Source: Boswellia sacra
Lineage: Eukaryota > Streptophyta > Magnoliopsida > Sapindales > Burseraceae
Length of the DNA stretch: 64,000 nucleotides
Assembly: GCA_013180625.2 (NCBI GenBank)
Contig: SNVD02007236.1
Location: forward strand, 62,001-126,000
Direction of reading: 5' to 3'
The notes beneath the pieces were generated by a model. It saw only the letters and a program-made list of their open reading frames with translations, was not told the DNA's origin and made no database searches. The translations under genes were made by a program, and so were the position numbers. Shown one piece after another: positions 23,831-61,153 of this stretch. Every line of letters starts with the position of its first letter. The stretch's first letter is position 1.

Positions 23831-23845
23831 ATCTCCCCCTTTTTA
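23831..23845 (-). promoter_or_regulatory. Copia element 1 polypurine tract
   Basis: The plus strand reads atctccccctttttag directly inside the 3' LTR, giving AAAAAGGGGGAGAT on the element strand, adjacent to the TG of the LTR. Confidence 0.85.
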
Positions 23846-30348: not shown

Positions 30349-30844
30349 ACTTAGAGGAGAAACAAATGTTTCATCATTCTTTGAACTAGGACTTGACTTT
30401 AAAGAGTTAAGTTCAGAATTTTTACCTGTTGTTGAGGCTTTACAAAGACTATTTTTGATGTAGATGCAACATTACATTCAGTATAATCCAATCCATGTTT
30501 GTTGGAGTTGTCTCTTCCAAGGTTCAAAACTTGATCAAGTTTGGCTGCTCCAATTTTGAGTTGATCAGCACACTTCTTGCTTTCAATTAGTTATGTTGTG
30601 ATTTTCTCAATGTGTGCTATTTTGTCTGTCAAAACAGTCTCAAGTTCTGTGATATGGTTTTCAGCATAAGCTTTTTCACATTTCAGAACTTCAATCTCTT
30701 TTTTCATGGTGTTGATTTCTTCTTTCTGACTCAGCCATTCACCATAGAGTGCATTGTATGTTTCTTGCAACTCTTCATTATATTATGGCCCATCTTCATC
30801 ATCTAAATGATCAACACTGACTTGACAATCTTCTGTTATGTCTA

Positions 30845-31924
30845 TCATAATAGTTTTCCTTTATCTGCTGCAGATGCTGTAAATGCAACAAAATTGCTCA
30901 TGCAATCTTGACCTTCTGACTCTGATTCTGATTCATCAATCCAGGTTGCTGTCAGCCCTTTGTTTTTCTTCTTGAGATTAGTACATTCAGATTGAATATG
31001 CCCATAACCAAAACATTCATAACACTGAATCTGTCCTTTCTTTTCAGGTTGTTTCGACTTCTTTTTATCATTCTCCTTGCTGAATTTTCTGAACTTTTCT
31101 TCACTTGAGTTTGATGGCTTTCCTTGATTCTTTTTCCTGAAATTTCTTTTCATGAACTTAACATAATTTCTTGTTAGAAAAGCAATTTGTTTAGAATCAG
31201 TTTCATCAAGCTCATCACTACATTCATCATCAGATTTTTCTGCTTTCACATTAAATGCAATGCTTTTAACTTTTCGTCTCCTAACTTTGATTTATTTCAA
31301 AGTTTTGGAGAATAACAATCAGTTCATCAACTCTCATTTCATCAGTGTTTTTAACTTCCTCAATGGATGAAATTTTAGGTTGAAATTTATCTGGGACAGA
31401 CCTAATTATCTTACTAACAACTTCTGCATCAGTGAAAGTTTTGCCAAGCATGTATGCTGAATTTGTAATATGACATATCCTAGAGCAAAAATCAGAAATT
31501 GATTCATCCTTATACATAATCAGATTTTCAAATTGAGAATTTAGCCTCATTAATTTAGATCTTTTAACAGATGCAGTACCTTCATGTTTTACCTCAATAT
31601 GTCTGATGTTTCTTTGGCCATTTTGCATCTAGAAATCTGTCCGAAGTTGTTTAAGTCTACTGCAGCAAAGATTGCATTAAGGGCCTTGAAGTTCCAACTG
31701 GATCATCGGTATTCTTCATCAGACCGTTCATCCTCTGGTTTTGGTTTGGCATTACCAAAAGCATTTAGCTTTGTTGGCAGTGTCTATCCTTTAAGCACAC
31801 TAGTCCATGCCCTATCATCAAGAGACTTGATATACATCATCATTCTTACCTTCCAATATAGGTAATTACCATCATCTAGAATAGGTGATTGTGTTCCAGA
31901 TCCTCCATTGTGAATAAACTCCAT
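30845..31924 (-). pseudogene. Copia element 1: gag
   Basis: Starts at ATG 31,924 (MEFIHNGGSGTQSP), 50 nt after the primer site, and reads into the conserved DDGNYLYWKVRMMMYIKS segment of copia gag (UBN2/DUF4219-type). A stop replaces a tryptophan codon at about 31,786. Further frames (31,628-31,281 and 31,249-30,845) carry the helical gag core and a CCHC zinc knuckle (CYECFGYGHIQSEC, 31,024-30,983). Capsid-like assembly and RNA packaging are the family roles; this copy cannot make the full protein. Confidence 0.88.
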
Positions 31925-31973
31925 CCTTCCAAATCAATGTGATAGTTTTCTTCACTTCTCTATCAGTGAACCC

Positions 31974-31985
31974 GCTCTGATACCA
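31974..31985 (-). promoter_or_regulatory. Copia element 1 primer-binding site (tRNA-iMet)
   Basis: The minus strand reads TGGTATCAGAGC, complementary to the 3' end of initiator tRNA-Met, two bases inside the 5' LTR. Confidence 0.93.
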
Positions 31986-31987
31986 AT

Positions 31988-32887
31988 TGAAAGTTATGGA
32001 GGTATGCAGTTATAAATAACAACATAGTAAACTGTAATGTAAATTGGCACGGAGGATTTTTACGTGGTTTGGTTATAAAACCTACGTCCACGGACAGCTA
32101 TAGAGTTGCAATTCACTAAGTTCTTGTTTGTACAATCTTTAGGACCTTTTACAGTGCTGACTCATTCTCACACACTAACCTAATCTTTGACAAACAAAAT
32201 CTTCACAAAGATCCTAAACTTTAGTGATACTGCTCACTCTTGGTCACAGATAACTTAACAACATACTGTTAAGTTATACATAACACCCGATGTCTGATAC
32301 ATAATTACATAAACACTCAACCCTCAAGTTATCCCAAGTGTCTACTAACTCACTCAGACTTAATCAACAAATCATGTACGATTTTTAACTCTTATACATG
32401 AACCAAAGACTGAATGAATCAAAGTAATAAAGACATTCCAATCTGTATAGAAAATCTTCGTTCAATTCATGGAATGTCGTGACCTACATTCTCAAAAACA
32501 CAATCGAGTCACCAAATGCGTAAAACTTTTTTCTTTCCGACTATGTCATAACTCGATATATTTATTGGAGGTTTGGTCGAAATCTTCCTAAAAATCCTAT
32601 AAATATCTCAATCAAAATCACATTAGGATTAGGATAAAATAAAATAGGAAGTGTTATAATTAAACTCCTAAAAGAATTTTGACACAATTAAATATCCTCC
32701 TATTTTGATTAGGATACAAGAAATATTATCATAATCTGAGGAGATATTTATTGTGAATCAAATACTTCCTATAATGATCATCTAGAAATAGTGAAATAGG
32801 AATCAAAATATTATTCTACTTTTATCACAAGTTAAACAAAAACTCAACATGTGCATGGCACATGCAAGTATCATATTAACACCAACA
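31988..32887 (-). repeat. Copia element 1, 5' LTR
   Basis: 900 bp, plus-strand ends tgaaagttatgg and caccaaca. Followed on the plus strand by the TSD aaacc and the resumption of array unit 2. Confidence 0.92.
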
Positions 32888-32892
32888 AAACC

Positions 32893-33599
32893 AAAAATTT
32901 TAGGTTGGTGAAAATGGAACCTAAATCAACCCATTCATATCCATACAAAACCAAATAAAACACAAAACTCTGGTCAGTTGGTTCAGGTTGATTGGGTAAG
33001 AATGGAATTAATTCTACTACACATATTAATTTTAATAATTTAGACTTGATACAACACAAGTTTACATAAATATATATTTCTATATATAGCTCAAACAGTT
33101 TTTGCATAAAAATGAAATAATATTATTAGCAAGAGCAAACAACAAAAAAAAAAGGCATTAGAGATAAATATCCTATTCTAATGTTTAGGTCAACAAACGG
33201 AACAAACAAGTCCAAGGTTTTATGAGGCTCCAAGCCACTAAAATAAAAAGATAACTTTAGATTTTTAGCGTGTCTTTCTTCTATGCTAAACTAAAATTTT
33301 ATGAATTTTTTATTTTTGATAATGTAGCAAAAGAGAAAGAATTTTAGTTTACTGAGGTTTCTAATTAATATATAAAAAGTTCAAAGATGAAAAAATATTT
33401 TTGGGTTTCAGGTGCGTTTAGGTTAAGGAACCCTACCCAACCCATAAAAATTTTGCATTACCATAATGTTACCCCAATAAACCAAAATTAAATTTTGAAG
33501 CTGAACCAACTCGCATATTTTGGTTTTGATTGGTAATTTGCAGACCTCTACAGCATATATTTTTTAACATTTTACTTTATTTATTTTTCAAATTTTTCA
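32893..33599. repeat. Unit 2 of the tandem array, right part
   Basis: Resumes with aaaaattttaggttggtg, which in unit 3 (49,683) directly follows the same upstream words without an insertion. Runs to the next unit start, ttaagggaaaagttgtgag. Confidence 0.7.
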
Positions 33600-33965
33600 G
33601 TTAAGGGAAAAGTTGTGAGAAGGAATTATGAATCTTTTTCTTTGATGTGCAGGTTCTAGTTGGAATATCTCCCACAATAGTAGGGCGATTCTTTTAATAA
33701 AAACTCCTATCGTTTGACATCCTAAACAACATAAAAAAAAACCCATTATTAAATTAATTATTCATTACCATGAAATTTTTAATTATGATTTCATATCTAT
33801 TAATTTGAAATTTTGACTTAAATTGTTATCACTTGTCTCATAGGACAGACATGCAGATGTCAAGTGCAATCCTTCGATAGAATTTTAGGTATAATTCCTA
33901 TATCTAAAACTCTTATTATTGCAATATCTAATTTACAAATGAAAATAATATTTATCAATTAAACT
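33600..33965. repeat. Unit 3 of the tandem array, left part
   Basis: Follows the landmark order of units 1 and 2 until it is cut by the solo LTR. The last five bases, aaact (33,961-33,965), are the left TSD copy of that LTR. Confidence 0.7.
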
Positions 33966-34451
33966 TGTGAGTTTTTGTAGTATGGATAGTTAACAATAAC
34001 TTAACTAAAAACAGTAAAGTAAAATGGAGCAAAAGAATTTACGTGGTTCAGCTATAAGTCAACCTACATCCACGGGCAACAAGAGTTGCTATCTACTATG
34101 TTGTATGTGTTTACACTTGACTTAAGACTCTTTACAGTGGTAGACACCTAATCACTCACTAACCTAATCTATATAAACTTGATCGTCCTTAATCACAACC
34201 ATAGTCTTTTACATACTCTGCTGATGCTGCACTTCAAAATTATGATTGACATAACTGTACTAGTTTAGTTAGACATAAGCGACGTAACTGGTATAAGCTT
34301 AATGAATCATTCGACTCACTTAAGCTTACACAACTCTAATAACACTTACAAATTAGATCTATGCATGTACTCAATACACATAAGTCATCCATAATCTTAA
34401 CTCACTCACTCAAATAAAACATAAAGCTTTTTACAAAGAAATCAAAGGAAA

Positions 34452-35220
34452 CACTACAAGAAATTTTTTCATATTTGTCACTTTATAATTTTTTATTTGA
34501 CAGTTTTTCTTAGAAGTGAGAAATATAAAACTGGTCTGGAAGTCAAACCTGTCTATTCATCTATTTGTCATTTTTTGTCTTTATTCGATTACATATTTAT
34601 CACATTTTTATAAAAATGTAACTAATATATGAATATCTAATCTTTTCTCTTTCTCTCTCAAATTTTCCCCTAACTTTTCATCTACTCTTTCAAATATGTG
34701 AATAAAATATTTTAAATTTCAATAAAATGAAATAGTTAAAAATATCAAAATAATAATTAAATATTATAATTTTATTTTTAATATAAATTTAAAAATAATA
34801 TTTAAAAACTTGGAATAAAAGACAATATTATTGTCAATATGAAAATAATAATTTTGAAATATAAGATTATAAAAAGTAAAATTTTAAACATGGAAATTGC
34901 ATGAAATAAATAAAATTATTTTATAATTTCAAAGTAATGAAAATCACATTAGTTAAAATTTTTTATAATAATTAAGGAATTAAAAATCTTAAATAAAATT
35001 TTATTTTAAAATAATATAACATTTGTGTTTGAGTAAAAACTGTTATAATTTATTTTAAAAATTAAATTAAAACATTAATGCTCCAAAAATTATGAATATA
35101 ATGGTGTAAATAAGAAAAATTATGAAATATAGGGACTCATTGTAATTTGTAGAGATGATTTTGATAAATTTTAATAGATGTGGATTTCGTAGAATTTAAC
35201 AATAGTATATAAAGAAAATG
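34452..35220. other. CACTA left subterminal region
   Basis: After the terminal repeat there are several ttgtca/attcatatttgtca words up to about 34,640, then about 580 bp of very AT-rich DNA without coding signal. Confidence 0.6.
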
Positions 35221-35234
35221 ATAGACACCTTCAC

Positions 35235-35242
35235 AACCCTAA
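35235..35242 (+). promoter_or_regulatory. Telo-box-like motif upstream of the RPS9 fragment
   Basis: aaccctaa followed by pyrimidine-rich sequence, a combination common in plant ribosomal-protein promoters and 5' leaders. It suggests that part of the RPS9 leader was captured too. About 290 bp separate it from the start codon. The intervening piece (35,335-35,528) carries an open minus-strand frame that I cannot identify. Confidence 0.4.
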
Positions 35243-35529
35243 ACGGATCCCTAATTCCTAAACCTTCTTAACTCCATTGCCGCCCCTCGCAAGCCTTCTT
35301 CGCTCCATTGATAAGTTTTAATTTCTATGTATGTTTATAATTGATCATTGATGTGGGGAAATGCCATCACCAGTCTTGTCCAGTCAACCACTTCCTTACC
35401 ATAGATCCGGCAGCAAAGAATTCTTCTTTCAGTTCTTGGACAGGTGACAACGTTGTAAAGCTCATCTGTACGAGAGTTTTGCAACAGAGCGCAGACTGAG
35501 GAGGAGGAGGGCAACGGCTGCTCACCACC

Positions 35530-36068
35530 ATGGTGCACGTTTCCTTTTACCGCAACTATGGGAAGACTTTTAAGAAGTCAAGGCGTCCTTATGAGAAGGA
35601 GCGTTTGGATGCTGAGCTGAGGCTTGTGGGAGAGTTGGGCTCTGCTGCAAGAGGGAACTGTGGAGAGTTTAGTATGCTTTGAGTCGTATCCAAAATGTGG
35701 CAAGGGAGCTTCTTACTCTTGATGAGAAGAACCCACGCTGTATCTTTGAGGGTGAGGCTCTTTGGAGGAGAATGAACGGGTATGGGCTTCTGGATGAGAG
35801 CCAGAACAAGCTCGATTATGTGTTGGCACTCACTATTGAGAACTTTCTTAAGTGTTGTCTCCAGACTCTTGTCTTCAAGAATGGTATGGCCAAGTCGATC
35901 CACCATGCTAGAGTTCTCATCAAACAGAGGCACATTAGGGTTGGGAGGCAAGTTGTCAATATTCCATCATTCATGGTGAGAATAGACTCAGGGAAACGCA
36001 TTGATTTCTCACTCACAAGTCAATTTGGAGGTGGGTGCCCTGGAAGAGTGAAGAACATGATTTCCTAA
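35530..36068 (+). pseudogene. RPS9: Ribosomal protein uS4 (40S S9) fragment captured in the CACTA element
   Basis: From ATG 35,530 the translation [20 protein letters not shown] is the N-terminus of plant cytosolic S9/uS4, a small-subunit rRNA-binding protein. A one-base deletion near 35,633 shifts the frame. A glutamine codon has become a stop at 35,671-35,673. From there the original frame runs to 36,068 with [40 protein letters not shown] and [10 protein letters not shown]. It ends early (GRVK-NMIS), losing the C-terminal tail of about 20 residues. Compared with the family, arginines have become cysteine at five places, as expected from C-to-T change at methylated CpG. No intron is visible in this part. 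Confidence 0.9.
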
Positions 36069-36254
36069 AACTATGGAATGTGTTTACTTTTGTTCCTCTC
36101 GTTGATTTCACATTTGGTTGCTTTTTTACATTTTTCATTCTTATCAATTTATTTTCAATTAATATGATATTCTGATATGAGATTGTTTTTGTCATAGAGG
36201 TGTTGGAATGCTACTTTGCCTCCATATCAAGATCGTCATATAGCTAAAATTCCA

Positions 36255-36572
36255 AGTGTTTTGTAGATATCACTCTCTTTGTGCCTACATGGGTGATGAT
36301 GACTTGTTCAAGTTTCGACCTGAGTGATGATCAGCTGAGACAATGACTTGGTCATATTGCTAATATACCCTGTCAGGTGCATACTTTTTTTGACTTGTTA
36401 TTTATCAACACATCACTTTTTTTTTTTGCTTTCTGCTCCTTTTTTATCGCCTGATTACCGCCTGATTACCGCCTACAACTTGAAAAATTTCATCTTGGTT
36501 TCATACAGGTTATATATTCCATGGCTGATGAATATGTTCCAGAGTATGTTGATAAAAAGCACTCGTTGAAAG
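36255..36572 (+). pseudogene. DUF1749/UPF0613 (alpha/beta-hydrolase-like) fragment, two exons
   Basis: Exon a ends at 36,376 (tgtcag, then gtgcat). It reads RYHSLCAYMGDDDLF, a frameshift, then DLSDDQLRQ, a stop in place of arginine (tga), and LGHIANIPCQ. Exon b is 36,509-36,572, between acag and gtgag, and reads VIYSMADEYVPEYVDKKHSL. These are the adjacent segments of the plant DUF1749 family, an alpha/beta-hydrolase fold of uncertain substrate. The intron of 132 bp with GT...AG shows capture at DNA level. Both flanking exons of the source gene are absent. Confidence 0.75.
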
Positions 36573-37974
36573 GTGAGAATTATTTATATTGCTTGATTAA
36601 TAATCGAATGTTATATATAACTTATAGTTACCATTCTTTTAGTTAATTAAAACAATATAATTAAATAATCCTTTGTTAAGTTCAACTTAGCACCACCTCC
36701 TAAAATCACTTGCGCAAGATTTAATGGTTCTTACGAGCCTTGAATTGACTTTGTCTATTTGGGTTTGCAAGATCTTAGATGAACCTAAGACTTTTCAGAA
36801 CCTTTCTTTTTCCCTCACATTCTTAAAGGTTTTGAGAATTGTTTATATGATTTGAGTCATCCCTCTTCAGTCTCTATCTATAGAGGTGAAAGGAGATGTT
36901 TTGTTATTTTTAGTTTATTCCACACTGGCGTGTTCTGGGAAAAAGTCAAGTGAATTCTAAAGTGATATATAATTGTACACTTCAAGACATTTTTAATTTG
37001 CTAAGACTTGTATGCAAGAATTTCTAAGTAGTGATGCATCATGCAAGTCGATATTTAATTATGTGTTGGGATGACATCCCCCAACTCCTTTTCATGGAGG
37101 CTTGCTCTGGTACAAGAAATAATAAGATGAGATGAACACATATATATATAGACACACACACACACCCCAAATTAATTTGCATAAAATCTTTAAATGCTTA
37201 ATCAAATATTTAAAACCTCAAATGAACAAACTGGGGCTTTATTAAATATGTAATCTCAAATAGTTATACAAAATAATTAATATATAAATTACACCCATTT
37301 CAGTTTTTGTTTTTCTATCAATTTCATCATAGGATCTATATATATCAAATCTCAAGAGATTTTTTTTATTTAGTCTTTGTTCCATGTATTTTAATTCCTT
37401 ACTATATTTAAGCTACCGTTACAAAAATATAAAATTATATATTACTTTTTGCAAGATAAATTATATATATATAGACACACACAGATGCATCATGCATTCC
37501 TCATATAAAAGGGAATTAATCCCCATTGCATATGGGTACTAATAATCTGATTCATAATTATGAAATCGCTTGTTACTTTTTTTTTGTCATTTGTACATTG
37601 CAAGAAGTTTTATATTCATGTTGCTACAAATTAACAATTCTTTTAGTATTGATAGTCCAAATTATTTAATTGTTATTAATAATTTATTGATCTTATTATT
37701 TTCTTTAATTATAACAAAGAGAGAAAAATCCCCGTTACAGAATTAAAGCACATAATGCAGGTGAACTTCAAATGAAACGAGGACAAATTGGGCTGCCTTT
37801 CATTTAATAACTTTGAAGAAAAATACAGGTAAAATTAATTGATGTTTAATAGCATTAATGGGCCCAAAGAGAGTTGATGGATAGATAAGGGGAATAGTTG
37901 ACTGTGACAACACAAACTGGTTTGGTGTTAGACAGTCCAATTTTCTCTCCCAGAGTTTACTTGAGTTAAACAAA
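36573..37974. other. CACTA interior without recognised exons
   Basis: AT-rich, with microsatellite-like (at)n/(ac)n near 37,140-37,165 and again near 37,462-37,485. It may be intron or spacer sequence from the captured loci. No domain seen. Confidence 0.4.
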
Positions 37975-40088
37975 ATGCAGGTTTCAATCTGGAGGCAACG
38001 TGGGTTCATTTCAAAAACATCACTTTTTGGGGCTTTCAGATCAATCCCAAGTGCTACTTTTGCTTCAGCTGTGAAATGGGAAGGTGGGGTTTCAATGGTT
38101 TAGGGAGCTTCCAGGGGAATTGGCGTTGAATTTGTGAGTATTTATGCATTTCCTTGATACCCTTTTTGCATAATTTTGTTTAATCAAGTTATTGTTTGTA
38201 CTTTTAATAATGATAGGTTCAGTGAAACTCATTGAGTGAAAAAGTCTTGGCTTAATTTGTTTGGTCGTTTAACAAACTTTGTGGTGAGATTTGAAGTTGG
38301 TGTGTGTTTGATGGATAGCATTCTCATTTGTTGATATTGTAGTAGTTATCTATGTTTTCAATCCATCCTAGCGGCCTCATGTCTATGGCTACTTCCTTCT
38401 GCATCATATTAACCGGACAATTTCTACTTGTTCTGATGTTTACTTGAAATCGTTTTAATGACAGTGATAATGATAATGAAGTTGATAAAATATTGTGTTG
38501 ATTAATAGTGTTATCCAGATTAGAATTTTTTCTTTGAAAGGTTGAAATGCATTTCATTCCTTATTGGGGTTCTACCAATTTTGTTATGGCTTGGCCTCTT
38601 CTGTGGATGGTCAAGTGAAAGTCATTCCTCTGTGTTGCATTTTATTTAACAGTTATTGTTTCTGTTTCATTAAATTTCAGTTATTGTCTAGTAGTCTATC
38701 TAGTAAAATCATTAGTTAAGGTGATCGTATTACCATAATTCTTGTGGAACTTTCTGCCAAGGCTTTAAAATTCAGTTACAAGTTTGTGATCTTATGTAAA
38801 AATCATTTTGACATATAATCTCATACAATCATTGAAGGAGAGATTTTGACAGCTTAAAGTTGTTGTACAAATGGCAAACTTTAACTTTTTCCTTCACTTA
38901 ATAATTACTATCATAGAGGCTCTGTTGGTTATTTGTGTCAGAGGCTGTTCTGTTTTCAAGATAGATGGCCAGGCAATGTCTATCGCATCTGAAGTACCAT
39001 ATTGATTCTGTGTCATCTTTTGTATGGCCTTTTCAAGGCATTGTGATTGTGTTATGGATGTTCTTCTGTTATTTGATTTTAATCCTTTGAAACCAGATTG
39101 AGTTTGCCTTTTATAAACAACTAGAAAGTTCTATCTTTACCCCATTTTAGTTTCTTGGTGGAAAGAACTATTTTCACCTTGAATTTGATGATCTGATCAA
39201 TTTTAACTTGTTGTCTGCTACTTATAGGTTAAACAACTACTAGAGAAAAATGATAAAGGGCAGGTTATTACGACCTGCCGTAACCCAAATGGGGCAACAG
39301 GGCTTCTTGATTTGAAAAATAAGTTTTCTGAACGACTTGATATTTTTTAGCTGGATGCCACAGTTGAAAGCACCATAAAGGTTATATTGCTCCCATTATT
39401 ATGCTATTTCTGTAGCTTTTTTATCTCTGATCTATATCTGTTGCTTTTTTATCTCTGATTAAAAACTAACTCATCTTAGTGATTTTCTTAGGACTTGTAA
39501 TAGGCAAGTTTTAGCATGTTATTGATATTATTATTCAGTTTCATCTGTGTTAGTATTCTTCTTCCTAGCTGAATAATTTTGCCTTTAAGACCTCTTAGAG
39601 GCTCTTGTTATTGACCAAATAAGTCAGGAAAAATAGGGAAATAAAGCATGAAAGTCTACGATTATTAAGGGTTGGTAAAGCTGTTATGATATCTATTACA
39701 AACCATCTTCCTTTTGTTTTCTTGAGAATAAGATGGTGTAGTTGATTGTTTTATTTTGGGTTTTATACTTAATTTAGAGGGAGAACATTAAAATTTTTTT
39801 GCCTTATTTAAATTATGTTTCAGGCATTTGCGGAGTGTGTTAGACAAAAATATGGCTCTCTAAACCTTCTCATTAATGCATCTGGCATTCTTTCCCTAAA
39901 AGGATTTGATTTTTGGATTGTACTAATAGAGTTTAACTTTGCTGTTGATTATCTTAAGAACAAACTAAAAACTCAATAATTTTTTGGGGTAGCTTAATTT
40001 TTAAATTGCATATTAAGGATATCAACTTATTTTTTTTTATTTTCAATACAGAAACAACATTGACCAAAGTAGAGAAATCATCCTAAAA
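37975..40088 (+). pseudogene. Short-chain dehydrogenase (C-factor-like, Rossmann fold) fragment, four exons
   Basis: Exon 1 (37,975-38,133) starts at an ATG, has an organelle-type N-terminus (MQVSIWRQRGFISK), and reaches the glycine-rich NAD(P) motif GASRGIGVEF, with a stop (tag) where the family has glutamine. Exon 2 (39,238-39,380) reads VKQLLEKNDKGQVITTCRNP, then NGATGLLDLKNKF, and again has tag for glutamine before LDATVEST. Exon 3 (39,824-about 39,895) holds YGSLNLLINASGILS, the conserved NASG strand. Exon 4 starts at 40,052 (TTLTKVEKSS, then stop). Splice sites gtgagt/atag and ag/aag are visible. The catalytic YxxxK part was not captured. Confidence 0.85.
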
Positions 40089-40205
40089 CTTGTATATAAG
40101 ATTCCGGATACAAACAGCATATGTATATTTCAATGGCTGTTAGTTTGATTGTTTAATTTGGATATTTATCAGTTCTTACTTCTATTAAATCCCTTATTGT
40201 TTCAG

Positions 40206-40673
40206 ACTGATCAGAAGCTACATGTTTGTGACATTTGTGGAGCATTTCTGAGCGTTTATGACAGGTAAAGTATTGATCTTGTCTGTAATGTTACCTTTTT
40301 TTTTTTTTTGGTTTTTTTGAGGGCAACAAAGAAACAGTATTTGGGGTTTAAGTGCTTCAGCTTTTGACCCGACTATTATACCTCCTTGTCACCCGCAAGC
40401 TTTTGGGCCCAATTTTATGGGGATAACTTTTATAGCTAAAGAATGTGCGTCATTTTTTTCTGTTTTATATGCTTGTGATCATGCTATTGTTAGATAGAAA
40501 TATTTGGGCAGATTGTACCATACCAGTGCCTTATCTGTTGAAACTTTTTGGATATTGTGTGAAACATTTTAATTGTTCTTGTTACTTTCAGTGACCGTCG
40601 CTTGGCAGATCATTTTGGGGGGAAGCTTCATTTAGGTTATATGCAAATCTGTGATAAATTACAAGAGCTTCAG
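40206..40673 (+). pseudogene. LUC7-like U1 snRNP protein fragment, two exons
   Basis: Exon a (40,206-40,264) reads TDQKLHVCDICGAFLSVYD. Exon b (40,592-40,673) reads DRRLADHFGGKLHLGYMQI then CDKLQELQ. Joined by the intron (gtaaag...ttcag), they encode the second zinc finger of LUC7-family proteins (C-x2-C...H-x5-H), which bind U1 snRNA in 5' splice-site selection. No stop is present in either exon and all four zinc ligands are retained. The following donor (gtaaga) is intact, so only this internal piece was taken. Confidence 0.85.
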
Positions 40674-41441
40674 GTAAGACATGAATGTCACTATTTAAAA
40701 TTCACTGCACTACTGATGTATTAGTACCATTTGTTTTTTTTTTTTTTTCTCTTTTATGTTACTTAAGAATAATATTTCCTTAAGATTATTGTTGGGATTT
40801 TAGGCAAGCTAATTCTCCTTGGAAACTTCTTTGAGCAATTCTCTTTTGCATTCATGTAGCTTAAGAGTTTGATTTTTTGTATTGATTGAGACAGCCTATT
40901 TTCTGATTTTCGTATGACACTTATGTTGATATATTTATATTACCCTTTTATCATGTGAAGGTTGATCTATTTCATCACCTAAATTATCCTTGTTTGCATA
41001 ATAAATTAATCGAAATGGGTTATATGAACAAGAGTTATTGTTAATAAGTGGGTCGGTGAACTAAATTTCATCTTAATTGATTTTGGTTCGTCATTGGCTA
41101 TTACTTAGTTCAATTATTCTGATCTATAGATTCAACTTGTCTTTGCAAATTGAACATGATAATAAAACCCAAATTAGTGGCAATGTGCTTAGTGGGCTAT
41201 TCTTTGTTTTATGCATAATGTCTATGCGATTTCCTTAAGTTGGTATCGTGAATATGTTGGTTCAGGTAATGGTATAATGTTTCAAATACTTCTGTAGAGA
41301 TTCTCAATTAGTATACCATCTGTGAGTTTTCCTTACCTTGGAGAATAATAGTTTTTGTTTTCTAGTTCCTTGTGACTATTATATAGATATTGGACTCCCA
41401 AGTCTTGATGCTTCTTTTTAGAAGATTATTGGACTTGGGGA

Positions 41442-42983
41442 TGTGACACATCCGAAAAAAGGATTGTCTCCCAAGTATAGGAGTGTCGAAGTAATAATCC
41501 CGGTGAGACCGAGGTCGATCCACGAGGAAGGGGATTTTAACGTTACAAATTATAAGATAAGCAAATATGATATGAATAATTCAAAGAAATGACAAGATAA
41601 TATCAATAAATATGTAAGATGGTAGGCGGTATTACCGACCAATCAAATATAAAACAAAAGGCAAGAGGAGGTAAAACCATCCATGGAAATAGGTGGTATA
41701 ACCAACCATAGTAAATTAAAGAACAATTTCATAAGGTGGTAGAACCTACCATAGTAAATAAAATAAAAAGTTCATAAACAATAGAATAATTAAAATACAA
41801 GAGGAATTAACACAATAACAATGAAGGCTAAGGTTAGGGGATCCGCCCTTGATATTTCAAATAAGGATAATTAACCCATTTTAGTTATATGAATTATATT
41901 TGTTTCATTACCAATATTTATACCACTTCTTGTAAATGGGTTCAAGCATCCAATGTGCCAATCATGATATGTCTACAACAAATCAAGGTTCCTAACTAGA
42001 TTCGTGTCGGTAAGGAAGAACCATACATCATCTAGAAAGGATCCAAGCATTTGATGTGCCAAGGATTGTCGACAATGGATCAAGACCTCCACTTTACGAG
42101 TGGTGTCAAGATTGATTAAGAAATTAAATATAAATCATATTGAATAAACATTATAAGATTAAGATTATTAAGCACATATTAAGGTTAGAGAATCCTTATT
42201 CTCATATCAAGGGTTTCACCCTTTCACCTTAGCAAAAGAGAAATTAGAAGAACATTATAATAGAAAGAAAATAAAATGCAAGAAAAAGGAAATTCATTAA
42301 TAACATAAACACACAAAACACAATACAAGATCCTAGCCAAAGCCAAAATGTTCCAGCCAAGGCCAAGATGCCCTAATGGGTCACAAGGCACCTCTATTTA
42401 TAGATACATCCAGGGGCAAACTTGTCAAATTACAAGGGCATAATTGTCAAATATTAGTTGTAAATATCTTTGACAATTGGGATCATTAGGCACCGACTTT
42501 GACCATCAATTTTGACATCGAAATGTTGTGAATTTTAATCACATGTCTTCATGAAAGTTGTAGATATTTCTCTCAGATTTCTAGAACATATTGATTTGCA
42601 CAATTTGGATACGTATTTTGAGAGATACGGTCCAAATACTGAGGCCTGGTCAGACTGGGCCGAGACTGTAGATGGGTTCACTTCAAGCCCAATTTTGGTC
42701 CACTAAGAGCCCGAATTTGATGATGCTTGTGAAATACAATCTTGTAGACAATTAAATCAGCTTTCCAAAACATTAAGAATTGCACTATTCTGATCTCTAA
42801 ATAGAGAGTTATGCCTATTTTACCAAACCTGTAGCAAAACCAAAATTAAGAGAAATTAATTCCAAAGATGCAAATGCTACAAATATGCTTAAGTTGAGGA
42901 ATTTAATGACACTATTAATGCAATATGATGAACTAAACTCTTATTAAACATGCATATTTAAGTGTTCATCAGGATGCATCACA
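41442..42983 (-). mobile_element. Solo LTR-like insertion inside the CACTA element (1,542 bp)
   Basis: Ends form an imperfect inverted repeat: tgtgacacatcc at the left and ggatgcatcaca at the right, TG...CA like an LTR. On the minus strand a clean plant TATA box lies about 580 bp from the start, followed by a GC-richer leader. No coding sequence. I could not find a TSD (gggga versus ttttt), so the boundaries, or identity as a solo LTR, remain provisional. It separates the LUC7 fragment from the PDR fragment. Confidence 0.5.
42392..42404 (-). promoter_or_regulatory. TATA box in the solo LTR
   Basis: The minus strand reads TCTATAAATAGAG, a near-consensus plant TATA box, supporting minus orientation of the LTR. 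Confidence 0.6.
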
Positions 42984-43226
42984 TTTTTGGGTCTAATATA
43001 CTAGAATGTAATTCTTATGCATCCTGAAGTTGGATTTTATAGTTAAAAAATCAAAGACTTGGGCCATATCCTTCTGTGACTGACGTGATGGGTTAACAAA
43101 ACGTGAAAATGTTACTTAAAACAAAGTTATAGAAAATGGGTATGCTTTCTATTTAAAATCCTTGACTGTGACAAAAATGATTTGTAAATATAAATATGCA
43201 AATATATGTTTTTCATAAAAAGAAAG

Positions 43227-43296
<70 letters not shown>

Positions 43297-43297
43297 C
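43227..43297. repeat. Compound microsatellite (TA)n(TG)n(AG)n
   Basis: Uninterrupted ta from about 43,227 to 43,251, tg to 43,287, then a short ag run. Confidence 0.95.
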
Positions 43298-43440
43298 TAT
43301 ATGCATGAATCTGTAAAGATGAAAATCTATGTTGTTCCTTGTGCTTTGTTCCTTGTGCTCTGTACCCTATTTAGGAGTTTTTGGCTGCCTTATTGTGGTA
43401 GTTCTCAGATTGCCATCTCCAAGAATTATATGCATCTGTG

Positions 43441-43560
43441 ATATTCTTGGGCATCAATAACTGCTCAAATGTTATACCATATGTTGCAATGGAGCGAGCT
43501 GTTATGTACCGAGAAAAATTTGCAGGAATGTACTCTCCATGGGCCTATTCATTTGCGCAG
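43441..43560 (+). pseudogene. PDR/ABCG transporter exon fragment
   Basis: An open frame of 40 codons reads [20 protein letters not shown] followed by [20 protein letters not shown]. This is the signature stretch in the second transmembrane domain of full-size ABCG (pleiotropic drug resistance) transporters. It ends at an intact donor (cag/gtacca). There is no stop. The next exon of the source gene is missing, so the capture ended in the following intron. In the family this segment lies at the membrane; here it can only be part of a chimera. Confidence 0.85.
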
Positions 43561-43872
43561 GTACCAAAATCTTTAGAAGTGATTAAAAATTTAACTCAAC
43601 ATATGGAACTCTACTAGATATGCTTTTCCAGATTGGTTTTTTTCTGTCTGTGAAAAGTTAAAGGATGAAACTAATAATTATAACAGGAATTGGAAATGAT
43701 ATCCCACGAAACTAAGCTATGTTTTAGGAGAGTGAATATGGCATTATTCAAGTTCATTACTCACTACTTATTTTATCATTTTTATTTTTATTTTTGATTT
43801 ATTAATTTTTGAGTTGTGCTATTATGAACTAGTATTTGTTTCAAAATTTCTAATTCTTTGTTAATCATGCAG

Positions 43873-43941
43873 TCCCTAGCAGGAAGAGAATTAGAAGATT
43901 TTATACAATGTATTTGGGTTCTATGTACAATTTTTGCCAAG
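43873..43941 (+). pseudogene. Exon-like fragment, source gene not identified
   Basis: A 69-bp (23-codon) open segment between acceptor (tgcag) and donor (gtgagt) reads SLAGRELEDFIQCIWVLC then TIFAK. It may belong to the same source gene as the midasin-like piece that follows, but I do not recognise it with confidence. Confidence 0.4.
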
Positions 43942-44017
43942 GTGAGTTTTCTTTCAATCATTGATTTCTAAAATATATGTATTTTGTTTTAGGAGTTCTT
44001 ATCACATTTTTCCTCAG

Positions 44018-44126
44018 AATAATGGAGCATATAGGAGCTAGTTGGAGAAACATTGAGAAGGAGGTGAAAGAGCTTTTGAAGCTGTGTCGATGGGAGCATT
44101 TTATGCCCATTGATAACTTGAAAAGA
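44018..44126 (+). pseudogene. Midasin-like (AAA ATPase MDN1) fragment
   Basis: Follows an acceptor (cctcag). It reads IMEHIGASWRNIEKEVKELL then KLCRWEHFMPIDNLKR. The IEKE-KE-K--RW pattern followed by a basic helix matches a region in the C-terminal half of midasin, a ribosome-biogenesis ATPase. Sequence after 44,126 diverges. It has no stop. The assignment is from remembered family patterns only. Confidence 0.5.
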
Positions 44127-44263
44127 CCCTCTACTCTCAATGCTCTCAATTCTTCTATGGTTTGTTTGTTTCTCACTCTCTCTTTTGTTTTTAATTTTTT
44201 GTGGGTTTATATCAAGTGAGAAACTTGTTACTGAATTGGTTTTTTTTTAATATATATATATAT

Positions 44264-44341
44264 TTAGGTGGCTCGGTTGAAGAGATTGTATGAATCATGG
44301 GAAGAGAACCCAGATTGCACTGACGCATTGCTCTTCATCAG
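44264..44341 (+). pseudogene. Exon-like fragment (VARLKRLYESWEENP), unidentified
   Basis: After a pyrimidine tract and acceptor (atttag) the frame reads VARLKRLYESWEENPDCTDA. The end contains a 24-bp word (actgacgcattgctcttcatcagt) that recurs about 64 bp downstream, a local duplication. I do not recognise the gene. Confidence 0.35.
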
Positions 44342-44539
44342 TGTTTTTTTTAAATGAAGGTACAGCCTTGCTTTCCACACGTACTGACGCATTGCTCTTC
44401 ATCAGTTTTCTAGGAATTCTTTATTTCGTTCTCAATATCAAGTTTAACGCTTGAATGTGTTGTAAAGTTTCAAGTAGATGGAACTGATTTGATAAACCTT
44501 CAATTCTGCACTTTTTTAACTATTTTTAATTTCTTAAAG

Positions 44540-46033
44540 GTAATTCTAGTGTTGAAGATGCGGTAAATTGGATCATGGATCATGAAAATGATGCAGAAAC
44601 TGATAAGGTGCCTCTGGTATGACCTTTGATATTAAAGATTGTGTTCCTTTCTTAAAATGCTTGTGCTAGTCATATAAAAAGTCTAATTTTGTGGCTACTT
44701 CATATGTGGTATGGTAGGTTAGAGAAGAGCTAGCCCACTAGATATTATAGTTTATTTTAGGAAACTAACAGAATTAAAAGTTCAAATGAGAAAAGTATGA
44801 AAGATCACGTGTGTAGAAGACTGATAGAAGACCTGATCCTCCTTGTGTTGTCTCAGGATGTTATTTTTCCCATCTGTTCAATTTAATTCAGGTAGCAATC
44901 AACATTGACATTGAGTCCCCTGAACCAGATCATATGACAGATGAAGAAATTAAAATGAAAGCACAACAACTAAGGTTTTCCCTTTTCTGATAGGATCTCT
45001 TAAGTGATGAAAACCTTTGCAATATATTTCTTCTTTCATTATCAATTATTGCAAATTTAGACTCTTTCCGGTTTTCAACCTCAGATGTTTTTCTGCCTTG
45101 ATATTACTTTCTTATTCTTTCTTTTTCATTTTACTTTGAGACTGCTCATTGTTAGGGATCAAGCTCGCCAGAAGAAAGAAGAAGAAGAAAAGAAATTGGA
45201 AAGAGATAGGGAGAAGGTAGTTTAGAGATATTTCTATGTTTTGTTCTACGATAATTTCCCTTTTATGAAATTCTTGAATTTGGTAAGGCCCCTTTGTGTG
45301 CCTCTAAAATGTACATTCATAACAGTCCCATAAGATAAAATAGATAACCAACTTCCTGTGTGCAGTGTTTCATAGTTACCATTACTTTCTTCCTTTTTGC
45401 CTTATTAAGATTATGCAATGATAATTTGGTGCCTGGGAGATAAATTTTTTTGCTGTTGTTTGATGAAATATCAATTACATTATGCCAGAATCCAGTTAGA
45501 AATCTGGATCATATGATCATTTGTAGAGATGCTTTTGTGTCAGGGATTGTTTTACTTCTAGGATTGCTATGATTTGTCTGAGGTTGGTTGATTGGTTCTC
45601 ATCTCCAGGAATTTCATTGCCATTCTTTCATGTAGCTATCAATTTGGTATTCTAAGCCTTTGTTAAGAGTTTGATTGGAATTTTTTACCTATGCCAAACA
45701 TTCTATATCTTCTGTTGTTAATTTGAGCTCCCTAGCATCAAGGCTATCTAGTCTGCTTACTAGTTGCTACATATTTTACAGGAAAGGATAAGAGCAGCTA
45801 AGGAACTATTTGAGGCAAAGCCAATTGCAGAGGCAAATGAAAGAAAACAGTCTGTATCTTCCCTGCAATTTCTGCTCGCATGGGAGTTTTATGACTTCAT
45901 TTCTTCTATAAAATATTTTTATTTTGACTTCTGGGTGGGCTGTGTTATCAGTTTCTTAGCCCTGAGGAAAAAACAGAAAGAGGAGGAGAAAAGAGCAAGG
46001 AAGAAAATACTTGAAAAACTAGAAGCAGATAAG
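44540..46033 (+). pseudogene. UBA/UBX-domain (SAKS1/UBXN1-like) protein fragment, five exons
   Basis: Exons at 44,540-44,616, 44,892-44,974, 45,156-45,216, 45,782-45,849 and 45,960-46,033. In order they read NSSVEDAVNWIMDHENDAET (end of a UBA domain), VAINIDIESPEPDHMTDEEI, DQARQKKEEEEKKLERDREK, ERIRAAKELFEAKPIAEANE and LRKKQKEEEKRARKKILEKL. This is the UBA-linker-coiled-coil arrangement of plant SAKS1-type UBX proteins, which link ubiquitin to CDC48/p97. All five exons are open, and acceptors and donors look functional. The upstream UBA half and the downstream UBX domain are missing. It is the longest and best-preserved capture in the element. Confidence 0.85.
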
Positions 46034-46448
46034 GTGCTTTCATTCTTACCACAATATAGATTTTCTTCAAGTTTACATTTCAGCCTCGGTAGATTGGAGT
46101 TTGGAAATTATCTGCTTCAAAATTTTTTAAGATTTCTATTCATAGGATTTATCATCCCATTTCCATGCTGATAATATTTTTCTGTTACTCAACTTTTTGA
46201 AGTAATGCTAGCAGCCTAGCACCCTGCCAAAGATGAAAAAGAGGATAGAAATAAGAAATTTCATAAGAAAAATATCCCTAGAATGTACAATACATGAAGT
46301 TTCTGCCAGTTGCAAAACACTGGACAGCATCAAATTCATTTGGTTGGGATCAAAGTAAACATGTTCTGTAGATATTATGTTACTTGTATGGAGTTTGGAG
46401 TATTATTGTTCTGAAATGTTTATGGTTCCAAAATGTATATCTTCACAG

Positions 46449-46990
46449 CTAGAAAGAGGGCAGAATCCATCACAAAACTGAGCAGCTGTAAACAGTTCTA
46501 GACCAATTGTGCCCGATGTAACGGTATGGAGTCTATGGTTTTCCATCATCTTTCAGGCATTTCAATACTGATCAACTTCTAAAGTTAAATTCTTTTGTGC
46601 TGAGAAGCAGGAGAATTATACCGCAAGCTTAATGTGACTACATGTTCATTGTTCACAAATGTTTCTTCAGTCTTGGAGGTACGATTTCTTTCTTGGACTA
46701 TTGGTTTTCTTCTGTATAAAAAATTAGTGAAATAAAATTAATTCTTTATTTTGCTCTGACTTCTTAGAAATTCACTATATATCACTTTTACTAGTGCTTG
46801 GAGGCCTGATATTCGCCAATATTAAAGGATTTCCAAGTAATCCTCAATTTATTTTCTTTCTTTTGTTGTGGGAGGATTTCCTTATGCAGTTATGCACTTT
46901 ACAGCAGGCAAAATTGAATAAATTACTAGCTGGGGGATCTGCTTGTTCATGGTCTGATTCTGGTAGTTATAGCGAGGGGGTCTCTTAACT
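46449..46990 (+). other. Three further exon-like segments, unidentified
   Basis: Segment 1 (about 46,449-46,525) reads LERGQNPSQN, stop, AAVNSSRPIVPDVT and ends at gtatgg. Segment 2 (about 46,611-46,679) gives, with a frame change, NVTTCSLFTNVSSVLE, then gtacga. Segment 3 (46,905-46,988) starts after ttacag and reads QQAKLNKLLAGGSACSWSDS to a terminal stop. Spacing and splice-like borders look like the 3' end of a gene. I could not name it; it could be the tail of another captured locus. Confidence 0.35.
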
Positions 46991-47430
46991 CTCGAGTATG
47001 CTATTACACTGAGACTTGAAAAACTACTCGTGCACCAATTCTTGTTTTCCTACTGGATTCTGAAGACAGTTATGCAAAAACCAATAAACTAATTGAATCC
47101 ATTGTAAAGCTGTTTGGTGAATTGTGCATTCTTATACTTGAAATAGTCTCTTAAGTATCCTTTCATGCTCAAGACTATTCTGTAGAAATGGCAGTCTTTT
47201 CTACTGGATTCAAGTAATGTTCATTGTTTGGCTTTTGATTATGAACATGATTGGTCTTCTAGTGTTTGGAATTATGGATTAATATTATGTCTGTGGAATA
47301 CCTGTTGCTTCTGTTAGGGAATCCCATCAGTACTATAGATTTTAGTACTATATATTATGCAAACTGTTTTGGTTCATTAGAAAAGCCTTATCTTTGATTA
47401 AAACATACTCATGCTTGGTACCATCTTGAA
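46991..47430. other. CACTA interior without recognised exons
   Basis: No open frame of note. It looks like 3' untranslated or intergenic sequence following the last exon-like segment. Confidence 0.4.
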
Positions 47431-48005
47431 AGCGCCAAATATTATCAAATTAAAAAAAATTACTGTTACTATATGATATTTATCAGTCCCAAATTCGCCA
47501 AATATTGTAAATCTAAAAAAATTTTCCTATTTCAAACCATATTTATCGGTCAAAGCGCCAAATATAATAAAGGTTAAAAAAATATTTGACAGATCGAAAT
47601 GACAAATATGATCAAATTTAAAAATATTACCGTTATGAATTCATATTTATCGGTTAAAAAGTGTCAAATATGATGAAATTTAAAAAATTTGACCGTTAGC
47701 AAGCCATATTTGTCGGGCAAAAAGCGATAAATATGGTACAATTCAAAAATTTTAACCGTTAGAACCGACTAAATTTGTCAAAAAAAGTGACAAATATGTG
47801 AGTTTTTGTACAGTATATTTGCAGTTATATTTGGCGCTTTTATGTGACAAATATGATTTATACTATATTTGGCGTTTTGACCGACCGTCAAATATTATCA
47901 AATATACTATATTTGGCGGTGCCATTGGTGTCGTTTTTATGACCGTCAAATATTTACATATTTGACGGTCAAAGACCGCCAAATATGGCATTTTTTCTTG
48001 TAGTT
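47431..48005. repeat. CACTA right subterminal repeat region
   Basis: About eight to ten degenerate units of roughly 50-70 bp contain (g)ccaaatat-atcaaattaaaaa and ccgtta...catatttatcggtc in both orientations, ending in clustered atatttgacggtc/gaccgccaaatat palindrome-like words before the terminal repeat. Such arrays are where the CACTA transposase binds; the left end has only a weak version. Confidence 0.7.
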
Positions 48006-48711
48006 AAAATGCAATAGTTATGCTCTTTATGCAACTCACTTCTTTTTGCGTTAATCCACACTCCTTACTTCCATGTTCTAAATGCCTCATTATATAGGCT
48101 ATGTAGATAGCTCTATATAGTAATTGACGTCAGTCTCAATCGATATCACAATCCTTCAAAATCTTAATAACTCAAAAGATATGATTAGATAAAGATCATA
48201 TGATATAGGAAAGTATATCTCAATCACTTAGATAATTTAACAAGTATATCCTAATTATATAAGTGATTGACAAGCAAAGATATCCTAATTAAAGATGTGA
48301 TTAGCAATCAAGATAAATACTTATCTCCATAAAAAGATTAGATAGATATCAATAAAGATAGGAAGCTATCAATTACTTACATAATGTCCATGCATTTCTC
48401 AATCATATATTTGATTGATAATCAAGATAAATGCTTATCTAAATTATCCTTAATCTGACATATGATTGTCAATCAAGATCAAGATAGATTTTAATCAAAT
48501 AAGTGATTAGCAATTAAGATTAAAACTTCCTATAAACTATATATATCCAAAGATGCATTCCAATCAATTAATCTTTCCTAACAAAAATATTCAGATAAAT
48601 ATAAAACGGAAAGAAATCTTCATTAATCTTTTTATTATAAGATAAAAAAACATAAATGATCATGTGCATTACACATGCATGAGATGCCACGTGTCAAACA
48701 CCAACAAAACT

Positions 48712-50023
48712 AAAATAATTTAAGTTTTAATTTAGTTTGTGATCAACTAACTTGACATTAAAATTCTTAATTAGATCTAGAATCTACAAATTTGAACTAT
48801 GATTTTATAATTTATCTTCATTTTTAAATAACTTATCTTCTATAATATAATGGATCTAATTTGGAAGAAAAATAAAAAATAAAAAAACATATTCTAAGTT
48901 GCTAACTCATCAATTGTTTTTACTATTTTGTATAGATAAGGGCAAAGTCTTTGATGACCCTGAGGTGTCCAAAAGTTTTTCCTTGAAACGAATTGTTTCA
49001 AATTTTACTAGCTAAGCCTTCGATAATTTATGAAGTTCATAAGAACACCCTATAACTTCTTATTCTCTCAACTGTGGTTAACGGAAGAGGCTGGGATTTC
49101 AAAGTATATAAATCAAATTCTAAAATGACTAGATTTCATAGTTCCTACAACTATGAAGGATGGTTGCTCCCCATATTATTTAGCGAAGCTGCGAGTTCGA
49201 AAGGATCCATGTCTAATGAAATGTGACTAAATAAATATAACCAATAAATACTAATGTTATAAACTACTTATACATACTACCCATATAAACGATATGACAT
49301 AATATGATTTGATAAATAAAAGTACTAATTAGATAAATATATAGTAATAATAAACGACATTAATTAAGATGGATGATATGATGATCGTATAAGGATACCA
49401 TATTACTTTGTATTTGTGAGTTTGTAGAAGTAGTTTATAAAAGTAGCATCACTCTTTTAGTATATATATATATCATTATTATTTTTAGTATTAAAGTTTT
49501 TAGAGTTATGCTTTCATAAGGAAATAAACTATGGACCTAGGACTGCGCATGGGTCAGTTCAAGTTGGTTCTAGGCTAACCGGATGAGGCTCACTTAGTTC
49601 TGGTGTTTTATTGGTATTGGCAAATGCAATAAACTTCTAACAAAACCATGCTCGTGAAAATGCAATGCACTTTCCAGACCAAAAATTTTAGGTTGGTGAA
49701 AATGGAACCTGAATCAGTCCATTCATATTGAAAACCCAAACCAAAAAAAAACATAAAACTTTGGTTAGTTGGGTTAGGTTGATTTTGTAAGAATGAAATT
49801 AATTCTACTAAACACATTAATTTTAATAATTTAGACTCGATACTTCACAAGTTTACATAAATATATATCTATATATAGCTGAAACAATTTTTGCTAAAAA
49901 TAAAATAATATTATTAGCAATAACAAACAATAAAAAAGGCACTAGAGATAAATATCCTCTTCTAAGTTGTTTAAGTCAATAAAAGAATTAAACAAGTCAA
50001 AGTTTTTTACGAGGCTCTGTTGC
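48712..50023. repeat. Unit 3 of the tandem array, middle part
   Basis: Resumes with taaaataatttaagttttaat and follows the landmark order (taactcatcaattg, ggtcagtt...taggctaacc, ctcgtgaaaatgcaatgcac) until gaggctc at about 50,023. Confidence 0.7.
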
Positions 50024-51130
50024 ATAAAATTGCAAGTATACGATACCGTGGACAAGTAATAAAATGAGAATATAAGTATATTCCCACAAGGACTATTGCT
50101 ACTAGATACCGAAATTCTGGATAAAAGAAATTTATAATTAAAGATCTAGGGATCCGATTTCACCAAATTAATCAATTTAGCTTCTTTGATTCAATTGAGC
50201 AATGTTTATTCCTATTGTCGCTAATCGATTTCACTGATTTGATTATTATTCTTTCTCAAGCAATAATAATGTGTATCAATAGATTAGAATTACATCTCTG
50301 TCTCATCTAATTCACTATTAATACCCATTAAGCGCAAGAAATCATACAAGATTACACAAATCACATTCATATCTCTATCTCACATGATTTATGGCAAGAT
50401 AATTATGGACTAATATGAACATCACTTCTAAGTCTCAATCCACATCTTAACTCGTGCACCAATTGGCCAGAAAATCACAAGCATTTAGCATGTAATTAAA
50501 TTGCTCAACAATATTGGAATAAACATCAATCAACCAAAATCAAGAGAAATTAAACATCAAAATACAGCTACATCTTTACCCTAGAAAATAGAAATTAGTT
50601 CATATTACAAATTACAAACAACACAAATCTAAATATGTTTTTAAACATAAGTAAAAATAGGGATAGAAAAGAAACTAGCTACAGAGAGTTGAATCTTTGA
50701 TGATGAAGATCAAGGCTGTCCCGTTTTCGCCTCTCCTTTGTAAGCAATTCCTCTTCAAGTTTGAATCCCTCCAAATATCTACCTCTGCTCACCCTTAATT
50801 TCTCTCAGTCCAAATCCCCTTTCCTTCTTCCCTTCTCCTCCTTTTCTTCCTCCATTTCCAATCCCCACCGACAAGAGAGGAAACATCTTCATTGCAAAGC
50901 CATTGGATTCCACCTGAAAGTATTTTTTTCTTTTTTTTCAAATATGCATGTGGACCAGCTTTAATTGATTTCCCCCCAAATGCTTGGCGAACAACATAAA
51001 AAAAGGGAAGGACATAATGCCCCACCAGGAGTTCAATGATCAAAAATTAGTAAGCAACCCTACAACTTAAACAAACTTCGACAAAATTCGTCAATCAAAC
51101 ACAAAAAAGAGGGAAACAAACATTTGGGGG
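50024..51130. mobile_element. Probable LTR-type insertion in array unit 3
   Basis: Breaks the unit at gaggctc|tgttgcataaaattgc. The first 90 bp (gcaagtatacgataccg, caagtaataaaatgag, ttcccacaaggac) resemble a motif common near LTR/leader junctions of plant retrotransposons. The right edge is unclear, because array sequence resumes near 51,131 after a gap relative to unit 2. No TSD or coding sequence was found; the minus-strand frame at 50,795-51,043 has no known motif. Confidence 0.35.
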
Positions 51131-51520
51131 AAGTAAGAAGTTTATTTATTTATTTTTCTTAAATATAGCAAAAGAGTAAAAGAATTTTAGTTCACTAAGG
51201 TTTCTAATGAATAAATAATTTTAAGCTAAAAAATTATTTTTGTGTTTTGGATGTGTTGAGGGTTAAGGAAATGAAGCCCAACCCCACCTGTAAAAATTTT
51301 ACATTGCCATAATGTTACTCCAAGAAACCAAAATTAAATTTCAAACCCAAATCAATTCGCATATTTTGGTTTTGATTGATTTGGTTTTCGGGGTAATGGG
51401 TAATTTATGCACACCTCTGCATCGTACTTTTTCTAAATATTTATTTACTTATTGGTTAAATTTTTGAGTTATATAAGGAAAAAGTTATCAGAAGGAATTA
51501 GGAATCTTTTGGTTTTGAGT
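51131..51520. repeat. End of unit 3 and start of a fourth unit of the tandem array
   Basis: Matches the tail of units 1 and 2 (taaggaaatgaagcccaacccc, cacacctctgcatcgtac) and then begins the next unit (ataaggaaaaagttatcagaaggaatta) before similarity is lost. Confidence 0.6.
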
Positions 51521-54398: not shown

Positions 54399-54414
54399 AT
54401 CTCTCCCTTTTTGG
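54399..54414 (-). promoter_or_regulatory. Copia element 2 polypurine tract
   Basis: The plus strand atctctccctttttgg directly inside the LTR gives an AAAAAGGGAGAGAT tract on the element strand. Confidence 0.8.
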
Positions 54415-57500: not shown

Positions 57501-57530
57501 TCTTTTAAAGCTTCTTTCACATTTTTTTGG

Positions 57531-60892: not shown

Positions 60893-60941
60893 CCTTCTAG
60901 ATCAACGTGATCATTTTCTTCACTTGTCTATCAATGAACCT

Positions 60942-61151: not shown

Positions 61152-61153
61152 AT

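Follow-up and report, generated by a model that had tools for sequence, protein, structure and literature searches.

Plant CACTA transposons are known to carry pieces of host genes. For Tgm-Express1 of soybean, chimeric transcripts are reported to have been shown by reverse-transcription polymerase chain reaction, with the captured exons used as cassettes by the spliceosome (PMC1947982), and the Tpn1 family of Japanese morning glory is described as having 3-bp AT-rich duplications and chimeric transcripts, at an average element length of 7.1 kb and with the longest element reaching 40.6 kb (PMC5105172). According to a survey of Pack-TYPE elements, maize Pack-CACTAs hold the most distinct loci, larger elements holding more (PMC8903248). 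Here we report a CACTA-type element (34452..48005) in a 64-kb stretch of the Boswellia sacra genome (GenBank assembly GCA_013180625.2, contig SNVD02007236.1, positions 62,001 to 126,000 of the forward strand), hereafter the window, which is the whole stretch of DNA analysed and to which all positions refer. The element is very probably an old, degenerate, non-autonomous Pack-CACTA of the CACTA (En/Spm) superfamily that gathered host DNA in several steps. This reading follows from its CACTA ends, a subterminal motif shared by both ends, flanks belonging to one long terminal repeat (LTR), the failure to find a transposase, and eight gene fragments in one orientation, of which six have introns. 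It adds a rich case to a known kind of element, with examples described from soybean, morning glory and maize.

Results

The element measures 13,554 bp, or 12.0 kb without a nested insertion. Its left terminal inverted repeat, CACTACAAGAAA on the plus strand (34452..34463), is the sole exact match to this sequence in the window, and its right counterpart, AACTACAAGAAA on the minus strand (47994..48005), belongs to an inverted pair of 25 nt at 80% identity. The CACTA start is exact at the left end and 11 of the terminal 12 bp agree between the ends. When one mismatch was allowed, the single further match to CACTACAAGAAA in the 64 kb was the inverted copy at 47994-48005; with two mismatches, 11 matches were found where 11.5 were expected, which is chance level, so that what argues for the ends is the exact match together with its inverted partner and the subterminal repeats. 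Repeats of the GNCAAATA type were found at both the left and the right end. The right subterminal region (47406..48005, minus strand), which is imperfectly palindromic, contains 18 copies of CAAATA in both orientations, with a spacing that is partly ~63 bp; in 1000 shuffles of these last 600 bp, counted on both strands, the mean was 1.35 and the maximum 6, and none reached 18. The left subterminal region (34452..34611, plus strand) contains three copies in the first 160 bp, each after GN, a number reached by 1 of 1000 shuffles. A G stands two bases ahead of CAAATA in 16 of the 18 right copies and in all three left copies, and this shared context indicates that the same motif is common to both ends. 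The CACTA-type ends and subterminal repeats that an earlier note on this DNA had described were thus confirmed by the exact and inverted pair and by the shuffle test, the flanking aaa being the weak part of that claim. No second copy of either element end occurs within the window. Relic ends were not found in the 12.35-kb interior, which contains 11 motifs of the CAAATA type, compared with 48 in the 50.4 kb outside; 500-bp bins with three motif matches number two in the interior and two outside the element.

The flanks of the element were compared with an LTR model of 902 positions built from the four LTRs of the two copia elements in the window. The left flank (33970..34285, plus strand) corresponds to model positions 5-304 (69.3 bits, E 1.9e-21), the 5' part of a divergent copia LTR, and the right flank (48554..48705, plus strand) to positions 760-901 (15.2 bits, E 4.2e-05), the 3' end of the same LTR. 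In 500 dinucleotide shuffles of each flank the observed score was never reached, the best being 0.4 bits on the right and -0.9 bits on the left. When joined, the flanks align across the join with three of the four LTRs at 59-61% identity (for the LTR labelled A5, over 1-871 of the join, E 4e-28). Further out, the blocks at 33056-33939 and 48719-49240 match 21241-22141 and 22145-22688, which are adjoining stretches of an unbroken copy. The two flanks thus represent opposite parts, 5' and 3', of one LTR and follow each other in the expected order, which is what a single insertion predicts and gives the boundaries of the element support that does not depend on its ends. Judged from these alignments, the element interrupts a third, divergent LTR that is itself placed within an older repeat.

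The two copia-type LTR retrotransposons of the window lie on the minus strand at 22929-32888 and 53498-62054, with LTR pairs at 22.9-23.8/32.0-32.9 kb and 53.5-54.4/61.2-62.1 kb. They are 87% alike over 5.8 kb, and the LTR pair within each is ~94% alike. A repeated block, with dispersed copies ~71-85% alike (20117-22939, 32890-33963 and 48706-51510), occurs on both sides of the CACTA element and of the first copia element.

Between its ends the element carries fragments of at least eight unrelated plant genes, and all eight read on the plus strand. A six-frame Pfam scan of the element (stops read as X, E 0.1) gave matches to LUC7, S4, Ribosomal_S4 and UBA_7 in plus frames only; neither the third plus frame nor any minus frame gave a match at this threshold, and no Pfam transposase was found in any of the six frames. 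With hand-joined exons, S4, adh_short, LUC7, ABC2_membrane and DUF1749 scored above the Pfam cut-off and UBA_7 and ECH_2 just below it. A tblastn search with 125 proteins, restricted to UBA/UBX, short-chain dehydrogenase (SDR) and midasin proteins, yielded 388 matches on the plus strand and none on the minus strand, and showed collinear exons in the UBX, SDR and midasin pieces. In a composite-query protein search, 1367 of the 7996 proteins scored gave matches, of which the best 120 are UBA/UBX and SDR proteins only; this search says nothing about DUF1749, LUC7 or mS47. An Rfam search of the window gave no match at gathering scores. Introns are kept in six fragments (DUF1749, SDR, LUC7, midasin, mS47 and UBX), which indicates that DNA, not RNA, was captured in these six cases. 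The pieces have also decayed, with a frameshift in RPS9 and stops in DUF1749, SDR and midasin. Seven gene segments, mostly with introns and all in plus orientation, had been named in the earlier note; each of the seven proved real by Pfam, PDB or protein matches, the strand and the introns were borne out, and an eighth, the ECH_2/mS47 piece, had been missed.

This eighth fragment, from a 3-hydroxyisobutyryl-CoA-hydrolase-like/mS47 gene (44124..44318, plus strand), has two exons, the first of which is fused in frame to a midasin exon. The exon at 44018-44159 encodes midasin as far as ...DNLKR and then, in the same frame, PSTLNALNSSM, followed by a GT/AG intron and then VARLKRLYESWEENPDC; the fused exon is free of stops, and its frame carries on into the exon that follows. 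The mS47 assignment is based on a match to ECH_2 (E 8e-06) with scores of 26.0 and 24.1 bits, against a cut-off of 27.2, and on PDB matches to mS47 (9evs, E 1.3e-08) and to the mitochondrial 3-hydroxyisobutyryl-CoA hydrolase-like protein 2 (6xyw, E 4.6e-08). A junction inside an exon is hard to reconcile with ordinary genes that happen to be neighbours. Directly after the mS47 piece, a 27-bp direct repeat (96%) occurs at 44319-44345 and 44383-44409, 64 bp apart, and represents a small tandem duplication near a junction.

The remaining fragments are described in their order along the plus strand. The uS4/RPS9 fragment (35530..36065) runs from the start codon to about codon 176 with no intron and one frameshifted stretch; it matches Pfam S4 (E 1.3e-10) and uS4/S9 chains in the PDB (best E 1e-86), the best of which we take to be plant chains. 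As the piece is intronless and its parent gene presumably has introns, we suggest, and only suggest, that it may be a captured retrocopy. Upstream of its start codon, 35230-35529 has 46% G+C, as does RPS9 (46%), compared with 32% for the element, and is perhaps the RPS9 5' untranslated region or one more fragment. The DUF1749 fragment (36198..36572) has two exons with stops and a frameshift, the 5' edge of the first exon being placed by eye, and matches PF08538 (E 7.1e-06, 25.8 bits against a cut-off of 24); a second version of the piece gave no Pfam match. The peptide at 36201-36263 was considered as a separate gene and dropped, being better explained, by eye, as an exon of DUF1749 that has lost an internal stretch.

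Next follows a C-factor-like SDR fragment (37975..40086), with exons 1-3 separated by introns and a likely fourth placed by eye. It matches adh_short (E 6e-11), proteins of Melia, Pistacia and Mangifera are collinear with it over exons 1-3, and its best match among the 120 proteins listed is from Melia azedarach (80%). The LUC7-like fragment (40206..40673) has two exons and matches PF03194 (E 2.2e-18) and the PDB chain 'Protein LUC7' (E 1.1e-13). Between it and the ABC-2 exon sits a nested insertion of 1528 bp (41444..42971) with TG...CA ends, flanked by a GGATG duplication at 41439-41443 and 42972-42976; from these ends and this duplication we read it as a putative solo LTR, outside the captured set. 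The ABC-2 transporter piece (43444..43560) is a single PDR/ABCG-like exon with a GT donor, matching PF01061 (ABC2_membrane, E 9.6e-08); alone it gave no PDB match at E 1, and its subfamily is presumably PDR rather than another.

The midasin fragment (43871..44126) has two exons, with two stops in the first. Its exon search scored five of nine candidates (Citrus, Pistacia, Xanthoceras, Acer and Dipteronia) at 65-70% identity, of which one is named midasin and the others hypothetical; tblastn supports the assignment too, and Pfam gave no match to this piece. A reading of SLAGRELEDF at 43873 was rejected as lying in the wrong frame, since the midasin frame there carries two stops. After the mS47 piece, the UBA/UBX-protein fragment (44539..46523) contains six exons with introns, the sixth placed by eye. 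It scores 24.6 bits with UBA_7 (E 2.3e-05) against a cut-off of 27, shows four collinear tblastn blocks over exons 1-5, and has as its best match among the 120 listed a UBX domain-containing protein 1-like of Pistacia vera (74%, E 6.9e-51). The best UBX and SDR matches point to a host that probably belongs to the Sapindales. Finally, one or more putative terminal exons, from a possible ninth source, lie at 46608..46985 with AG/GT edges set by eye; the piece ends in ...AKLNKLLAGGSACSWSDSGSYSEGVS-stop and gave no Pfam, PDB or protein match, with none of 18 candidates, limited to ~270-870 residues, matching at E 1.

Elsewhere in the window, 239-1380 and 1375-2515 form a 1142-bp direct duplication that is 99.9% identical and stems either from tandem duplication of very recent date or from an error of assembly, and a plant mobile domain (PMD, E 2.6e-13) lies at 15326-15793 on the plus strand.

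Discussion

Several observations weigh against reading the element as a Pack-CACTA inserted into an old LTR, or weaken parts of its support. At the ends, the right side has T instead of G as its outermost base, and the sequence aaa, which stands at 34449..34451 and again at 48006..48008 as a putative 3-bp target-site duplication, is of low complexity in an A-rich context and weak alone. The left end is poor in the subterminal motif, its first 600 bp containing 4 CAAATA, an unexceptional number reached by 53 of 1000 shuffles. At the insertion site, the right LTR match is weak, with a composition bias (25.7) that exceeds its score, one of the four LTRs aligns with the joined flanks at the two ends only, and model positions 305-759, the central part of the host LTR, yielded just one stretch, at -0.9 bits; this part is too diverged for the empty site to be fixed to the base. 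The splice edges call for similar caution: all 15 donors are GT and 15 of the 16 acceptors are AG as first placed, a one-base shift giving AG at the remaining one, in DUF1749, but the exon edges were picked partly for GT/AG and the counts omit presumed-breakpoint ends, namely the 5' end of the ABC-2 exon and the 3' ends of three others, mS47 exon 2 and SDR exons 3 and 4. Independent support for the edges comes from the ends of homology blocks, which agree with them (e.g., SDR exon 2, 39228-39380).

The wrong right terminal base, the low-complexity duplication and the poor left subterminal region would fit a graveyard of gene fragments, bracketed by accident by CACTA-like ends from two different decayed elements. 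We consider such a coincidence very improbable, because the two ends share one subterminal motif and the outer flanks correspond, correctly ordered, to the 5' and 3' portions of a single LTR. The captured content could also be imagined as a functional chimeric gene kept by selection on its protein product, given the intact splice edges and the uninterrupted midasin/mS47 exon, whose reading frame carries on into the following exon; this appears extremely improbable, since the pieces of RPS9, DUF1749, SDR and midasin contain stops or frameshifts.

Helitrons are rolling-circle elements without CACTA inverted ends, having 5'-TC ... CTRR-3' ends with a hairpin and no target duplication, and the Boswellia element differs from them by its inverted CACTA ends. 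Nevertheless, the fragments might have been brought by Helitrons or Pack-MULEs that inserted into a CACTA element, in which case the CACTA machinery would have captured few or none. The element is long enough to act as such a host and contains one nested insertion with its own duplication, and Helitrons, too, are described as gathering several fragments stepwise (PMC3288121). Against this, no further terminal pair was found around subsets of the fragments among the 25 longest of 98 inverted pairs (a scan specific for Helitron or MULE ends was not part of this search), and the midasin and mS47 pieces join within one exon with no terminal sequence between them, leaving nested insertions an improbable source. 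The Pack-CACTA reading of the earlier note is well supported by the ends, the motif, the one-LTR flanks and the eight fragments.

If the element is a Pack-CACTA, an autonomous relative would have supplied the transposase while the element gathered host genomic DNA in several separate events, either through repair with template switching or through fusion of neighbouring insertions. Insertion into the old copia LTR, uptake of a retrotransposon that would now be a solo LTR, and decay would have followed. Fusion of neighbouring insertions, proposed for Pack-TYPE elements, is favoured by a review and by the Pack-TYPE paper, with the review leaving an undiscovered alternative possible (PMC13317346, PMC8903248), and template switching in gap repair, credited to Rubin and Levy (PMC8978399), is the alternative route. 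The lack of internal relic ends in the Boswellia element speaks against the fusion route, although ancient ones may have been lost to decay. Sister copies carrying fewer fragments, should they exist, would reveal directly in which order and by which mechanism the pieces were captured.

Chimeric splicing from co-oriented exons with intact splice edges is plausible, and transcription of the plus strand, should it occur, would give chimeric, mostly non-coding transcripts by analogy with Tgm-Express1. Chimeric transcripts and small interfering RNAs (siRNAs) against seven genes at once, both put forward in the earlier note, are hypotheses; the 25 longest of 98 inverted pairs, with longest arms of 37 nt (70%), include no long internal repeat that could readily serve as a hairpin source of siRNA.

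The common orientation of the fragments gives a two-sided sign test value of 0.008 (8/8 plus, calculated by hand and assuming independent captures), which is suggestive only, as the number of independent events is not known and the case was chosen for its co-orientation. It is tempting to speculate that chance does not explain why all eight fragments point from the end poor in motifs to the one rich in them, and that this orientation reflects directional capture or a filter keeping sense, spliceable exons, but we regard this as a doubtful proposal that is probably incorrect. If it were true, Pack-CACTAs would be collectors of exon cassettes, with the in-frame midasin/mS47 exon fusion as one product. 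The grapevine CACTA element with transduplicated fragments, like the Boswellia element, contains host gene pieces, and as described it carries one PPR fragment opposite to its transposase, which argues against an orientation bias as a general rule of the superfamily (PMC2528002). Co-orientation and kept splice edges make the Boswellia element a usable test case for exon gathering by CACTA elements and for orientation bias.

Among known systems, the Boswellia element resembles the Tpn1 family in that the termini and subterminal repeats are conserved and the interior is swapped for captured genic DNA, the Tpn1 family being reported with 339 copies and a putative autonomous relative (PMC5105172). 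Like the Pack-CACTA/Pack-TYPE elements described from Arabidopsis, rice and maize, it draws its genic DNA on several loci, and a search for a transposase gave nothing (PMC8903248). With maize Helitrons it shares several unrelated fragments and a probable stepwise gain (PMC3288121). The earlier note had called the element unusually rich, which is fair for a single element but has to be seen against the multi-locus Pack-CACTAs (PMC8903248) and the maize Helitron with eight predicted fragments (PMC3288121) that are documented. For CACTA gene capture in Anacardiaceae, nothing relevant appeared in the literature among the 8 listed of 253 matches. In the sources at hand, the highest stated number of source genes for one CACTA element is five, in Tgm-Express1, and the tables of the maize survey may hold richer ones. 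It is Tgm-Express1, an element of 5.7 kb with pieces of five genes that lies in intron 2 of F3H and is transcribed, its exons being spliced as cassettes into the host transcript, that provides the closest parallel as reported: both are CACTA elements that contain exon and intron pieces from several unrelated host genes, with canonical GT/AG sites (PMC1947982), whereas the Boswellia element is 13.6 kb long, carries pieces of at least eight genes, and lies decayed within an old LTR.

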